A stretch of DNA of 64,000 bases from Solirubrobacteraceae bacterium (lineage in GTDB: Bacteria > Actinomycetota > Thermoleophilia > Solirubrobacterales > Solirubrobacteraceae). Below, piece after piece: positions 14,344 to 20,038 of this stretch (its first letter is position 1; every line of letters begins with the position of its first letter). The stretch covers positions 1-64,000 of the forward strand of contig JAUJOT010000001.1 in the NCBI GenBank assembly GCA_030447505.1, given 5' to 3'. The notes below the pieces were generated by a model that was not told the DNA's origin, did not search any database, and worked only from the letters and a program-made list of their open reading frames with translations. Position numbers and translations under genes: made by a program.

Positions 14344-15144
14344 TCAGGGCTTCAGACCCACGACGAGCAGGTACTCCGACGGGATCCGCAGCTCGCCGTC
14401 GCCCGTGTCGAACGACTCGACGAGCGCGCGCAGATCGCCCTTCAGCGCCTCGTATGCCGCGCCGCCGAGCACCCGCTGCGCAAGCACCATCGGCCCGAAC
14501 TGCTGCTCGTAGCCGGCGAACATCACATCCAGCGACTCGAAGACGAAGTCGACGCTGCGACGCTCGATCGCGAGCAGCGTCTGCCCGCCGAGCAGCGCCC
14601 GCACGTGGGCCTCCTCTCCCCACAGCGCCGGCGGCTCCGGCGGGGGCGGCGCGGGCAGGTGGGCGGCGAAGGTGGCGAACATGCGCCCGATGAACCCGTC
14701 CGGAGTCCAGCTGGCGAGCACGATCGCCCCGCCTGACCGGCAGCTGCGAACGAGCTCCGCGGCTGCCACGTCGTGGCGCGGGGCGAACATGACGCCGAAT
14801 GTCGACAGAACGCGATCGAAGCTCTCGTCGTCGAACGGCAACGCCTCGGCGTCGCCTTCGACCCATTCGACGCTCACGCCGGCGAGCGCCTCGCGGCGGC
14901 GCGCGTCGTCGAACAACTCGGGGGTGATGTCGAGGCCGACGACGTCCGAGCCCGCCAGCGCTGCGCGGATCGCGGCGTTGCCCGTCCCCGTCGCGACGTC
15001 GAGCACCTTCATGCCCGGGTCGATCGCCGCCGCGTCGGCGACGACCGCCCCGACGTCCCAGAACAGCTCGGCGATCGCGTCGTAGTCGCCTGCGCTCCAG
15101 ATCGCCCGCTGCAGTGCCTTCAGCGCCGACAGTTCCTCGCTCAT
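14344..15144 (-). CDS. class I SAM-dependent methyltransferase
   Basis: A 266-residue methyltransferase. Motif I is VLDVATGTGNAAIRAAL, motif II VVGLDITPELFD, an acidic EGDAEALPFDD and the post-I segment FDRVLSTFGVMFAPRHD. This is the UbiE/Methyltransf_11 pattern, and the substrate is unknown. A TACTGT box lies 10 nt upstream of the ATG at 15144, so it probably has its own promoter. The 94-nt gap to the phosphorylase gene holds only a weak inverted repeat. Confidence 0.85.
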   Translation of the reverse strand: MSEELSALKALQRAIWSAGDYDAIAELFWDVGAVVADAAAIDPGMKVLDVATGTGNAAIRAALAGSDVVGLDITPELFDDARRREALAGVSVEWVEGDAEALPFDDESFDRVLSTFGVMFAPRHDVAAAELVRSCRSGGAIVLASWTPDGFIGRMFATFAAHLPAPPPPEPPALWGEEAHVRALLGGQTLLAIERRSVDFVFESLDVMFAGYEQQFGPMVLAQRVLGGAAYEALKGDLRALVESFDTGDGELRIPSEYLLVVGLKP

Positions 15145-15189: not shown

Positions 15190-15861
15190 CTACGCGCAGT
15201 TCGGCCACGGGCTCGTGCCCGCCCGGCGCAACAGCTTCGCCGCCATCCGATCCTGCTTGGCCTCGGAGGCCTGCGCCGGGTCGCCCCTGCCGCCCATCCG
15301 GCGCCACGTCTGGATCGAGAACTGGTACTTGCCGCGGTACCGACCGTCGGCCGACACGGCGGTCCGATCGCCGCCCGACTCGCATGCCGCGATGCGCTCC
15401 AGGACGGGATCGACGGCTGCCGAGGCAGCACGCAGCCGCGCGCCCCGCAGCGCGCTCTCCGCGATGCCCAGCGCCTTCAGCGTCCGCGGCCCGATCACGC
15501 CGTCGACGGAGAGCCCGTTCCTGCGCTGAAAGCGCTTCGTGGCGGCACGCGTGCGCGGACCTACGACTCCGTCGGCGGTGACGTTGAGGGCCTTCTGGGC
15601 GGCGACGATCGTCGGCGTGCTCAACCCGCCCCGTACAGGGATGCGCTGCTCGGCGAGCGCTCCCGCGCTCGCGAGCAGCACGCCCGCGGCCGCCACGAGC
15701 ATCGACGCGCGGCTGCGCAGCAGCCGCCGGCGGCGCAGCCGGGCCGCCGCCCGGCGCCCGCGCGCGGCGCGCAGCGATCGGCGGTAGGCGATCGTGCGCG
15801 CTGCGTCGCGTTGCTGCGGCGCGACGTCAAAGATCGCCGCTACGTCGTCGCTGCCTGTCAT
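15190..15861 (-). CDS. secreted peptidoglycan-binding, Rpf/transglycosylase-like protein
   Basis: A 223-residue protein. An Arg-rich N terminus is followed by a hydrophobic segment (SMLVAAAGVLLASAGALA), probably a non-canonical signal or anchor. Two short peptidoglycan-binding repeats follow (TIVAAQKALNVTADGVVGPRTRAATKRFQ and SVDGVIGPRTLKALG), then a C-terminal Rpf/SLT-like domain with ERIAACESGGDRTA, in which the glutamate is the catalytic candidate, and GKYQFSIQTWRRMGG. Such proteins cut peptidoglycan glycan strands and help growth or resuscitation. A c-di-AMP riboswitch sits in its 5' leader, as is known for rpf genes of other actinobacteria. Start is ATG 15861. Confidence 0.88.
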   Translation of the reverse strand: MTGSDDVAAIFDVAPQQRDAARTIAYRRSLRAARGRRAAARLRRRRLLRSRASMLVAAAGVLLASAGALAEQRIPVRGGLSTPTIVAAQKALNVTADGVVGPRTRAATKRFQRRNGLSVDGVIGPRTLKALGIAESALRGARLRAASAAVDPVLERIAACESGGDRTAVSADGRYRGKYQFSIQTWRRMGGRGDPAQASEAKQDRMAAKLLRRAGTSPWPNCA

Positions 15862-16169: not shown

Positions 16170-16406
16170 AGACCTCAGCGCGGCGAGCGCCGCGTCGAGC
16201 GCCTCGCGATGCTGCGCGGCGCGCTCGCGGCCGTAGGCTCGGCGAGCTCGCGGCTGACGAGAACGCCCAGTCGCTTGACTGCAGCGCGAGCAGCTCGCGC
16301 ACCGCGCGCCGCGCGGCCACGTGCCGAAGCCCTCGACATAGGCCATGTGGCTGTGCAGGACGATCGCGAGCTCGCCCGCGGCGCGAGGGAGACGATCGGC
16401 GCTCAC
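16170..16406 (-). pseudogene. remnant of GH57 glucan branching enzyme
   Basis: The frame opens with GTG at 16406, overlapping the methyltransferase stop as GTGA, and reads AGELAIVLHSHMAYVEGFG, the conserved N terminus of GH57 alpha-glucan branching enzymes. After about 31 residues it jumps in another frame to AVRELLALQSSDWAF, which is C-terminal GH57 sequence. Completing that C terminus (SRELAEP, then GRERAAQHREALDAALAAL) requires two more single-base shifts. About 85% of the gene is therefore missing, the catalytic residues are gone, and the rest is frameshifted. The GTGA coupling shows it was the partner of the upstream methyltransferase. Confidence 0.8.
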
Positions 16407-17197
16407 GGCCGCAGCACGGCGACGAGGTCGAGCGCGCCGCGCAGCTCGCGCGCGCTGGCGCTGCGCAGCGCGAAGTCGCGCACGTCGATCGCCGGCGTGA
16501 AGCGGTCGTAGAAGCGCTCGGTGATGCCCAGCCGAGCGTGCACGGCGTCCCACCCCAGCCGCAGCGCTCGCGCGTGCAGCGCAAGCTTGCGCGCGTGGTA
16601 CAGGCCGAGGATCCGGACCGACGCGAAGTGCACGCGACACAGCGCACTGAACTCCTCGGGCCGGTACTCATAGACGTGCCACGGGTTGCCCGAGCGCTCG
16701 GCGCCCGGGGGCGCGAGCGTCAGCACGTTCGGTGTCGAGACGAACACGACGGCGTCGGGCGCGCCGGCGACGAGCTCGCGAAAGCGGGCCAGCACGGCCG
16801 CGGGGTCCTGAACGTGCTCGATCGTCTGCAGGAAGACGAGCGCGTCGCACGACTCGTCGTAGGTCTCGGCCATCGTGCGCACGAAGCGCAGGTTGTCGCG
16901 CACGTAGCGCAGCCGCGCGTGCTCGAACGCCTCGGGGTTGGCGTCGATGCCGACGACCTCGGCCGCCCCGGCCTGCGCCAGCAGATCGGAGCCATAGCCC
17001 TCGCCGCAGGCCATGTCGACGACGCGCAAGCCGCCGACCTGCTCGCCGATCCAGCTGTAGACCGCGAGGTGGCGCTGAAACCAGTAGTTCTCCTCGGGTA
17101 CGTCGGGCAGCGTCCGCTCGCCGGTCAGCGCCAGCGGCGGCACGCCGGGCGGCTGGTCGTTCTGGAGGTAGAGCTGCTGGCTGTCGTCGCCCGACAC
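16403..17197 (-). CDS. class I SAM-dependent methyltransferase
   Basis: A 264-residue methyltransferase with motif I VVDMACGEGYGSDLLA, acidic VVGIDANPEAFEHAR and CDALVFLQTIEHVQDP, as in the Methyltransf_23/ubiG-like group. GTG 17197 is preferred because the frame further upstream lies inside the preceding gene. Its stop overlaps the start of the GH57 remnant and its start is 11 nt from the upstream membrane-protein stop, so it sits inside an operon. In intact relatives it would be coupled to a glucan enzyme, suggesting a polysaccharide-related substrate, but this is inference. Confidence 0.85.
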   Translation of the reverse strand: MSGDDSQQLYLQNDQPPGVPPLALTGERTLPDVPEENYWFQRHLAVYSWIGEQVGGLRVVDMACGEGYGSDLLAQAGAAEVVGIDANPEAFEHARLRYVRDNLRFVRTMAETYDESCDALVFLQTIEHVQDPAAVLARFRELVAGAPDAVVFVSTPNVLTLAPPGAERSGNPWHVYEYRPEEFSALCRVHFASVRILGLYHARKLALHARALRLGWDAVHARLGITERFYDRFTPAIDVRDFALRSASARELRGALDLVAVLRP

Positions 17198-17208
17198 GGC
17201 GAGGCAGC

Positions 17209-18267
17209 CTACGGCGCGGGCGCTGCCGCCGCGCGCGCCTCGAGATAGCGCGCGCGGTCGCCGAACGTCTCGCGCAGCGAGGTCTGCAGCTCGTCGAGGA
17301 ACTCCGCCCGGTAGGCCGCTTCGGTGAGGACGGCGATCGCGTAGTACAGGCCGCTGAACGCGGCCAGCCCGCTTGACACCTTCAGCAGCTCGACGCTCGT
17401 CGACGCGTTGCCGGCGATCGCGTGCGGCCGCCGGCCGATCCACGACTCGACGACGTCGGGCGTGACCGCCAGCGCGCCGAACGCGACGAAGAACGCGCCG
17501 ACGAGGACCGCGACGACGAGCACCTGCAGGCCCTGGCTGACGAACATCACGAGGCCGACGTTGAAGCGCTGGCGCGACGTCAGTGGCGGGTCGGCGCCGA
17601 CGTCGCGCTCGAGCTCGCGCACCTCGGACGGCAGGCGCGATCCGACGAAGCCCGAGCCGACCGCGAAGAAGAGGGCGATGACGCCGAGCAGCGCGGGATC
17701 GGAGACGTCGGAGAAGACCTGCCACATCTCGGTGTTGACGAACAGGACGATCATGAAGATCAGCAGCACCGGGACGGCCCGCGTGAGCAGCTTCAGCGAC
17801 GCCGCGAGCTGGCCGATCAGGCGGGCCGCGGTCCAGCGCAGGATCGACAGCAGCCCGATCCCGACGACGAGGTAGATGAGCGCCAGCAGCGCGAGGTTTC
17901 CTCCCGCGGTCACGAGCGCGCTCGTCACCTGGCCGCCGAAGACGAGCGGCAGCAGCGCCGGCACGAGCACGAACGCGGCGAGCTCGATCGGGCCCACGCG
18001 GTCGGGGACCGACAGTGGCGGCCGCCCGCGGCGGCGATTGATCATCGCCACGCCGCTGACGACGATCGCCATGCCGCCGAGCAGCGCCAGGACGTTGCCC
18101 CACCACGGCCAGTCCTCGTCGACGGCGCCCAGCAGCTCCCCGGTGATGACGAGCGACAGCAGCGGCACCGCGCGCGTGAAGATGTCCTCGTAGGCGGAGT
18201 AGTCCTCGATGAGCAGTGGCAGCCCGGCGCGGCGCAGGCGCCGCTCGTAGCCCGCGAGCTCGTCCAT
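17209..18267 (-). CDS. polytopic membrane protein of unknown function
   Basis: A 352-residue protein with about eight hydrophobic helices, beginning after a 30-residue cytoplasmic N terminus (VPLLSLVITGELLGA onward) and ending in a charged C-terminal tail. I do not recognise a family; no transporter motif or catalytic signature stands out. A TATCCT box lies 6 nt before the ATG at 18267, so it can start its own transcript. It leads the methyltransferase and the GH57 remnant. It is 100 nt downstream of the JmjC gene, so read-through from that operon is possible. Confidence 0.7.
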   Translation of the reverse strand: MDELAGYERRLRRAGLPLLIEDYSAYEDIFTRAVPLLSLVITGELLGAVDEDWPWWGNVLALLGGMAIVVSGVAMINRRRGRPPLSVPDRVGPIELAAFVLVPALLPLVFGGQVTSALVTAGGNLALLALIYLVVGIGLLSILRWTAARLIGQLAASLKLLTRAVPVLLIFMIVLFVNTEMWQVFSDVSDPALLGVIALFFAVGSGFVGSRLPSEVRELERDVGADPPLTSRQRFNVGLVMFVSQGLQVLVVAVLVGAFFVAFGALAVTPDVVESWIGRRPHAIAGNASTSVELLKVSSGLAAFSGLYYAIAVLTEAAYRAEFLDELQTSLRETFGDRARYLEARAAAAPAP

Positions 18268-18367: not shown

Positions 18368-19624
18368 TCAGGCCGCGCCGGTGATGGCGTCGCCTGCGCC
18401 CTGGCGATCGCGCTGAAGCAGGAAGCCCTCGCGAACGAGACGCCTGACGAGCACGAGTCGGCCGGCGGCGTCGAGCCGGCCGGGTAGCTGCGCGGCGGTG
18501 AAGGGCGCAGCGGCGGCGTGGATGGCGGCGACCTCGGTTGCGGCGCGCGCCGGAAAGACGACCTGCTTGCCTTCGAAGCGCAGCCCGACAGCGCCGCGCG
18601 GGCGCTGCTCGAGGTCGGCGATCACGGTCGGGCGGCGCTCGAGCTGCGTCTCGAGCGCAAGGCGCTCCAGCGCCCGCAGCTGGCTGAGCTGGCCGTCGAG
18701 GATCGCGCGGCGCCCGTCGACGAAGCGCTGCCGCGCGCGACGAGCGACCTGCTGCGGTCCCAGGCGAGCGGCCAGGCGCTCGACGAGCTCGCCGGGAAAC
18801 TCGGCGCTCGTGTCCAGGCCGCGGCGAAACTCGACCTCGGCGGCGCATTCGGCAAGCGCCGCGCGGAGCGCGTCAAACCGCGTCGGCGGATGCAGGCCGA
18901 CCGTGACGTGCAGCGAGTCGGCGTCGGCCGCCGTCGCTTCGTGCGGCCAGCCACGCGGGATGTAGAGCGTGTCTCCCGCGCGTAGCGTGATGTCGTGCAG
19001 CGGCGCGCCGACCGCGTCGGCGGCGCCCGCCGACCAGCGCTGGTCCTTCAGCGGCAGCTCGATGACCGGCTCGTAGATGCGCCAGCGCTTGTGTCCGGAG
19101 ACCTGCAGCACGAAGACGTCGTGGGTGTCGTGATGTACCGCGAAGCCCTGCGCGCAGGCCGGCGTGCAGTAGGCGTTGGCCTGCACCGGGCAGCCGAGCG
19201 CCATCTCCAGCCCGCGGCAGTAGAGGGCGGCCGGATGCCAGTGAAGATGCAGCGCCTGCAGGACGATCGTCGCTCCGGCGGCATGTTCCTCGGCGACGCG
19301 ATCGACGAGCGCGGTCCCCGAGAAGCTCCCGGGGCGCCACGCGATGTCGCTCGTATAGGCCGACAGAGGAAGCTGCCCGCCGTCCTTGACGAGCCGAAAC
19401 GCCGGCGCGCGGATCGCCGTCTCGCAGACCAGGCGCTCGACGTCGGCGTCAGACAGGATCGCGTCGAAGCGACGCGCGTCGGCGCGCGCGACGATCAGCG
19501 GCAGGCGCTCCCGGTACTCCTCGACGAACGCGTGCCGGCCGACCGGTTCGAGCGTCAGCTCGAGGGCCGACCGCAGCGGCGCGCATCCGGCGACCGCCGT
19601 CCTAGGAATCGTCGCCGGAGTCAT
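18368..19624 (-). CDS. JmjC/cupin_4-type Fe(II)/2-oxoglutarate oxygenase (ROXA-like)
   Basis: A 418-residue protein from ATG 19624. The cupin barrel shows the metal facial triad as H164 and D166 in HHDTHDVFVLQVSGHKRW and H228 in YIPRGWPHEA, the layout of bacterial ROXA/YcfD and human NO66/MINA53. After the barrel come a helical dimerisation-like part and a winged-helix-like C terminus, also as in ROXA. Known relatives hydroxylate Arg or His in ribosomal proteins. Here the start lies inside the upstream Asp-repeat peptide gene (23-nt overlap) with no ribosome binding site, so translation is probably coupled. The adjacent peptide is therefore the obvious candidate substrate. Further in-frame ATGs at 19654 and 19693 exist only because the repeat is read in this frame. 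Confidence 0.85.
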   Translation of the reverse strand: MTPATIPRTAVAGCAPLRSALELTLEPVGRHAFVEEYRERLPLIVARADARRFDAILSDADVERLVCETAIRAPAFRLVKDGGQLPLSAYTSDIAWRPGSFSGTALVDRVAEEHAAGATIVLQALHLHWHPAALYCRGLEMALGCPVQANAYCTPACAQGFAVHHDTHDVFVLQVSGHKRWRIYEPVIELPLKDQRWSAGAADAVGAPLHDITLRAGDTLYIPRGWPHEATAADADSLHVTVGLHPPTRFDALRAALAECAAEVEFRRGLDTSAEFPGELVERLAARLGPQQVARRARQRFVDGRRAILDGQLSQLRALERLALETQLERRPTVIADLEQRPRGAVGLRFEGKQVVFPARAATEVAAIHAAAAPFTAAQLPGRLDAAGRLVLVRRLVREGFLLQRDRQGAGDAITGAA

Positions 19625-19811
19625 CACCGGCGTCGGAGGCGTCGCCGGAGTCATCGCCCGTGTCGGCGGCGTCGCCGGCGTCGCCCGAGTCATCAGCCGT
19701 ATCGCCCGTGTCGTCGGCGTCGTCGCCAGTCGCGACGGTCAAGCCGCCGAAGCGGTGCGTCTCGATCTCGTCATCGCTCAGCGTGGCGGAAGGATCATCT
19801 CGGTCGGTCAT
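19602..19811 (-). CDS. 69-aa Asp-triplet-repeat peptide, candidate modified-peptide precursor
   Basis: A small gene with a strong GAGGAG ribosome binding site 7 nt before ATG 19811. Residues 1-29 look like a leader (ATLSDDEIETHRFGGLTVAT). Residues 30-69 contain only Asp, Ala, Gly, Ser and Thr, with 18 Asp at a three-residue period (units such as DSG, DAG, DAA, DTG) that resets at DD pairs. There is no signal peptide and no Cys. It overlaps the JmjC oxygenase gene. I infer a precursor whose Asp, Ser or Thr side chains are hydroxylated, but a metal-binding or purely structural acidic peptide is also possible. No known family is recognised. Confidence 0.7.
   Translation of the reverse strand: MTDRDDPSATLSDDEIETHRFGGLTVATGDDADDTGDTADDSGDAGDAADTGDDSGDASDAGDDSGDDS
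19605..19724 (-). repeat. imperfect tandem repeat encoding Asp-x-x triplets
   Basis: About 120 bp coding residues 30-69 of the small peptide. GAC/GAT every 9 nt alternates with small-residue codons, and blocks restart at GATGACTCCGGCGA-like units of about 30 nt. Confidence 0.75.
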
Positions 19812-19843
19812 GACAGGCTCCTCGCGGTTGGGCTGCGCTCCGT

Positions 19844-20038
19844 CTACCCGATCGGGTACCGGACGTGCGCGAGCTTGTCGTGCGACGGGCGGTCGGTCAG
19901 GATCGGCGAGCCCGCGGCCGACCACAGCAGCAGCAGCAGGGTCGCGATGACCGCGATCGTCACGACAGACGCCGCGACCGCCAGCAGGATCGAGACGTCG
20001 CCTTGCCGCGCGCCGCGCGCCGCGCGCTGCGCAGGCAC
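19844..20038 (-). CDS. 64-aa single-pass membrane peptide
   Basis: It starts with GTG at 20038. An Arg-rich N terminus (RAARGARQGD) precedes one strong transmembrane segment (ILLAVAASVVTIAVIATLLL) and a 20-residue polar tail, predicting N-in/C-out topology. Third codon positions are almost all G or C, which supports real coding. It ends 32 nt before the Asp-repeat peptide start on the same strand, so it is likely the first gene of that operon. Possible roles are anchor, exporter accessory or immunity-type partner, but nothing in the sequence decides between them. Confidence 0.55.
   Translation of the reverse strand: MPAQRAARGARQGDVSILLAVAASVVTIAVIATLLLLLWSAAGSPILTDRPSHDKLAHVRYPIG

Follow-up and report, generated by a model that had tools for sequence, protein, structure and literature searches.

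A pair of overlapping genes on the minus strand of the window (the whole stretch of 64,000 nucleotides from a Solirubrobacteraceae bacterium analysed here) encodes a short, strongly acidic repeat peptide and a JmjC oxygenase, which raises the question of whether the peptide is the substrate of the enzyme. The pattern of the sequences supports this reading well and makes it likely, because the peptide family combines a conserved leader with a variable repeat core, its genes stand in strict adjacency to those of the oxygenase, and the enzyme bears an RRE-like domain. The preliminary description had reached the same reading from the overlap of the two genes, and these observations give it stronger grounds.

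Peptide and oxygenase genes in the window

Analysis of the reading frames recovered the three minus-strand genes as first described. The 69-residue precursor-like peptide (19602..19811, minus strand) was recognized from its open reading frame and its strong ribosome binding site, a GAGGAG about 6 nt before the ATG, together with its composition, a chance test, its conserved adjacency and its leader consensus. It starts with MTDRDDPSATLSDDEIETHRFGGLTVATG, a leader (residues 1–29) with the motif LSDDEIET at positions 11–18, and continues into a tail of 40 residues drawn entirely from D, A, G, S and T (D18, A7, G7, S5, T3), a composition that agrees with the initial report; the computed net charge of the peptide is about −23. 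Aspartate had also been placed at every third residue of the tail, which holds only approximately: a spacing of 3 is frequent, but so is a spacing of 1, and most Asp-Asp distances take one of these two values. No such D/A/G/S/T-only run arose in 100 Markov-simulated 64-kb windows. The peptide has no named family in Pfam or NCBIfam, and promoter and terminator scans found nothing. Its codon-position differences (118/118/181), mildly biased to position 3, were not used as evidence.

Pfam, a PDB profile search, AlphaFold2 and Foldseek identified the product of the second gene (18368..19624, minus strand) as a NO66/MINA53-like JmjC 2-oxoglutarate/Fe(II) oxygenase, a member of the Pfam family JmjC_2 (PF08007, E 5.6e-30). 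The first ATG of its frame, at 19693, lies deep within the peptide gene; the ATG at 19624 is the likely start and gives 418 aa, and from there the gene overlaps the peptide gene, stop codon included, by 23 nt, in agreement with the overlap first described. The metal triad H164/D166/H228 (the 418-aa-type numbering of the preliminary description, equivalent to H157/D159/H221 in our alignment) is indeed intact and is invariant in 56–60 aligned relatives. Its residues make up the Fe(II)-binding HxD...H motif of the JmjC double-stranded beta-helix, as in the ROX (NO66/MINA/RoxA) group.

The original label of the enzyme as ROXA-like had to be replaced, since both sequence and structure place it nearer to NO66/MINA53. 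With a profile of five family members, the PDB search returned NO66/MINA53 with E values of 4e-33 to 8e-29 and, more weakly, RoxA/YcfD at about 1e-12 to 1e-11 (5e-12 to 1e-11 for the E. coli protein), while the AlphaFold2 model of the whole oxygenase (pLDDT 93) found its best PDB structural matches in human NO66 by Foldseek. NO66 (RIOX1) and MINA53 (RIOX2), the best matches by both approaches, have the fold, the metal triad and the C-terminal winged-helix domain of the ROX group in common with the window enzyme, the last of these as predicted by the model. RoxA/YcfD, the L16 arginyl hydroxylase, belongs to the same superfamily and carries the same PF08007 domain but is a much weaker match.

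The third frame (19844..20038, minus strand) starts with GTG, contains a single hydrophobic segment and shows a coding-like GC3 of 0.95. Its 64-residue one-helix product had been counted as a member of the operon and was rejected here, with no homologue at the loci of relatives (L004/L017, L005/L016, L006 or others).

Recurrence of the pair and its neighbours

Within the order, 6 of the 201 genomes carry the oxygenase. Outside the window genome, strong peptide matches (E < 1e-9) were confined to exactly the three relatives with close oxygenases (66–74% identity to the window enzyme), where they lie directly upstream. Scanning about 85,000 species genomes yielded 80 further loci, two of them the same records as two of these three relatives; at most of these loci a short acidic repeat peptide immediately precedes the oxygenase. 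A scripted test for the leader motif and an Asp-rich tail was passed at 91 of the 114 loci with readable upstream DNA, whereas 3 of 1341 control windows taken from these loci passed it. Enzymes similar to that of the window are over-represented in this set, which also includes a few duplicates. For this reason, an even sample of the phylum Actinomycetota was surveyed by the Pfam family PF08007 alone. The family was present in 42 of 296 genomes (about 14%), at 44 places, 41 of them with readable upstream DNA; inspection of the tables by eye revealed an Asp-repeat peptide directly upstream in 37 of these 41 loci, window included, and none in the remaining four (L096, L100, L107 and L112). The check proposed at the outset, conservation of the peptide beside the oxygenase in relatives, therefore came out strongly positive in both sets. 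Paired loci cluster on the oxygenase tree, with 4 changes versus 16.4 for shuffled labels. The pair recurs in many actinobacteria, with oxygenase relatives in mycobacteria, Micromonospora and Gordonia, and in some other bacteria; in the records examined, PF08007 oxygenases are labelled as anonymous cupin proteins.

Alignment of 83 peptides gave the leader consensus [LI]-x-D-[DE]-[DE]-[IM]-x-T, which is partly, not wholly, independent of selection, the motif-finding regular expression being looser than the consensus. This motif is kept while the cores vary: tails of the type TGDDSGD are found in the kin of the window, DADGTDGTDGE in Chloroflexota, tandem units of the EGPADGGSNPEGHDGGADGTA type in mycobacteria, Micromonospora and Gordonia, NDPSDP in Streptomyces, and DPDKKK or DPDAKK in Acidobacteriota and a gammaproteobacterium. 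Asp is present in 91 of 91 cores, and S, T, A and G, each in 85–91 of the 91, are nearly as universal; His is absent from 40 cores, Arg from 46, Asn from 47 and Lys from 77. In 18 peptides, that of the window among them, the last 30 residues lack H, N, R, K, P, Y, W, C and Q.

Several loci depart from the common layout. Two divergent PF08007 loci of one family (L096 and L100) have upstream a short peptide ending in (G)RSDGND, with no Asp repeat. Upstream of the oxygenase at L102 and L109 lie tandem EGPADGGA..DGGADGG peptides that have no DDDI motif, pointing to possible loss or replacement of the leader. In Streptomyces, the short upstream peptides of L032:2781-2924 and L126:4781-4927 contain two imperfect IADNDPSDP repeats, and the S. 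clavuligerus version of the pair sits on a large plasmid. The peptides L068:2507-2887 (Planctomycetota) and L095:2464-2907 (Acidobacteriota), which lie upstream of sister-clade oxygenases, begin with a leader of the DDEIVT/DDQIVT type; a twin-arginine-like signal comes next, and then a lysine-rich tail (DPDKKKK in L095). Both may possibly be modified in the cytoplasm and then exported, and such Tat-like-signal variants suggest export in some phyla.

Among the genes in the 3-kb flanks of the related loci, only the Suc_Fer family recurs widely, with unlinked enzymes possible, and no peptidase or exporter/transporter recurs beside the pair. Suc_Fer proteins are thioredoxin-like [2Fe-2S] ferredoxins of the Apd1/Aim32 type. 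The Suc_Fer-like gene (PF06999) lies directly downstream, as a third gene, in 68 of 111 related loci, mostly on the same strand as the pair and usually overlapping it or within about 80 nt; in seven Thermoleophilia-type loci (L018–L024) it is convergent. The window genome (G000) and its three close kin gave no PF06999 match, while a positive control genome of the order (G023) did. We can only guess that the Suc_Fer protein keeps the iron of the oxygenase reduced, and the openly licensed literature yielded no link between Suc_Fer proteins and JmjC enzymes.

Other neighbours of the pair in the window were rejected as members. The downstream 352-aa membrane protein (17209-18267) and a methyltransferase (16403-17248) are without homologues at the loci of relatives; another methyltransferase (14344-15144) matches genes near a few other loci but is a generic class-I enzyme, so that these matches are probably due to chance. 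Further along the minus strand (15190-15861) is the gene of a small protein that, judged by eye, combines a peptidoglycan-binding-like repeat with a lytic domain of the resuscitation-factor type at its C-terminus. At L008:10-2532, in a genome from the same family as the window, a radical-SAM-like gene and a gene for a short peptide with GMVSTDGCISSPGGPGC at its end neighbour that of a divergent JmjC protein, possibly a different RiPP cluster. A match to the IdeR iron box occurs only in four near-identical mycobacterial loci (L054, L066, L079 and L089), where TTAGGCCAGCCGTACCTTC, with 4 mismatches to the consensus, lies 5′ of the peptide gene; no iron-box control is claimed, because the intergenic and coding controls, not composition-matched, are not comparable.

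The C-terminal domain and the proposed modification

A model of the C-terminal winged-helix domain (18371..18670, minus strand) was obtained alone with AlphaFold2 (pLDDT 92). Its structural matches were first the ROX enzymes NO66/MINA53 and next MccB, PqqD, the PbtF RRE, TbiB1 with leader, ThcOx, TruD and McbB, at Z 5–8. MccB, PqqD, the PbtF RRE and TbiB1 scored a moderate Z of 6–8; as values below 8 can reflect a common arrangement, they indicate a shared fold, not binding. This predicted RRE-like fold agrees with a published remark, one sentence long, that RRE-like folds are present in the PF08007 proteins of some eukaryotes and RiPP-like contexts around their bacterial homologues (PMC12710340). 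The domain is a candidate for leader binding, of which the fold is no proof, because RoxA, NO66 and MINA53 share this domain although their substrates are ribosomal proteins.

Taken with the conservation of the pair, these features make it probable that the two genes form a minimal RiPP-like system: the oxygenase would hydroxylate the tail of the peptide, most probably on its Asp residues. Two traits by which RiPP systems are recognized were found: a small precursor gene adjacent to a modifying enzyme and conserved together with it, and a conserved leader followed by a variable core. The RRE-like domain would bind the leader motif, and the Fe(II)/2-oxoglutarate centre would then hydroxylate the tail many times, with the beta-carbon of Asp as the likeliest position, which would give a strongly acidic polyhydroxylated peptide. 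Asp is the best candidate target because it is the sole reactive residue common to all cores and because the JmjC enzyme FIH can hydroxylate L-Asp (PMC9814778). That a JmjC hydroxylase can act on a RiPP precursor is known from BipG (PMC12707348). As neither a transporter nor a peptidase accompanies the pair, the product would probably act in the cell or be handled by unlinked factors. As for its function, we speculate, on chemical grounds only, that binding of a metal (Fe or Ca) is the likeliest, since beta-hydroxy-Asp is known to bind metals and the Suc_Fer-like [2Fe-2S] protein accompanies the pair in most relatives.

Several observations count against this reading: the near-universality of S, T, A and G in the cores, the lack of a conserved protease or exporter, the peptides of L102/L109 that lack the DDDI leader, and the missing Suc_Fer partner in the window genome.

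Alternative readings and meaning for the enzyme family

The first of these observations bears on an alternative in which the peptide is the substrate of another chemistry, namely hydroxylation of Ser, Thr, Ala or Gly, or desaturation, cross-linking or backbone cleavage. Cross-linking of RiPPs is within the reach of 2-oxoglutarate enzymes, to judge from the title of a 2025 study cited in PMC12710340. We nevertheless regard such chemistry as unlikely, since Asp is the only reactive side chain in every core, across DxD, ADGG, DPDKK and NDPSDP repeats, and the nearest characterized enzymes are plain side-chain C3 hydroxylases.

These same relatives, NO66, MINA53 and RoxA, are ribosomal oxygenases, so the enzyme might instead act on a ribosomal or other cellular protein and the peptide be its regulator, inhibitor, metal donor or chaperone, roles in keeping with a strongly acidic molecule that could mimic nucleic acid or bind metal. 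The patchy distribution of the oxygenase within both the order and the phylum, which is unlike that of a core ribosome-modifying enzyme, makes this quite improbable, as does a conserved leader with a fast-changing repeat tail, typical of precursors; the tails differ completely between clades, whereas the catalytic triad of the enzyme does not. Finally, although this DNA has a high GC content and more than one open frame, several in fact, an accidental neighbourhood, with low-complexity DNA read as a gene beside an unrelated one, is refuted by the recurrence of the peptide at this position across dozens of genera, by the rarity of passing control windows and by the outcome of the simulations.

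The modification of the peptide by the oxygenase, our preferred reading, differs from each of the known systems with which it was compared. NO66 and MINA53, JmjC ribosomal histidyl hydroxylases, act on His in ribosomal proteins, while the window system has a dedicated small peptide encoded upstream, with no His in its tail. The E. coli K-12 roxA gene lies between pepT and phoQ, with no peptide partner annotated there. In biphenomycin-type clusters, BipG/BpmG and PbsQ are likewise JmjC/cupin-like oxygenases working on a ribosomal precursor peptide (PMC12707348, PMC12257519), but as tailoring enzymes of multi-enzyme clusters with MNIO and radical SAM proteins, BipG hydroxylating ornithine, whereas no modifying enzyme besides the JmjC one is evident for the D-repeat peptide studied here. 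RRE-dependent RiPP systems (PqqD, MccB, lasso B1, LanB/cyclodehydratases) also have an RRE-like domain fused to a modifying enzyme and a conserved leader motif; the window system departs from them by its acidic repeat core, its presumed JmjC chemistry and the lack of a conserved peptidase or exporter. No paper describing the peptide-oxygenase pair was found in the openly licensed literature, to which the search was limited, so that priority is not certain. The pair appears to be an undescribed peptide-modification system, and it stands a fair chance of representing a new class of RiPPs.

A broader proposal, which we advance tentatively and with less than even confidence, is that of a widespread RiPP-like class in which RRE-bearing JmjC enzymes iteratively beta-hydroxylate Asp-repeat peptides into polyhydroxyaspartyl metal-binding peptides. 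If this were true, its reach across phyla, including the Tat-like-signal variants, would suggest that the C-terminal domain of ribosomal oxygenases is an ancient leader-binding domain. Nearly all readable PF08007 oxygenases of the Actinomycetota survey have an acidic repeat peptide as a dedicated partner. Should this partner prove to be the substrate, a large enzyme family would gain a substrate and peptide modification a new class, and the ribosomal oxygenases of animals would be tied to RiPP-type peptide recognition.
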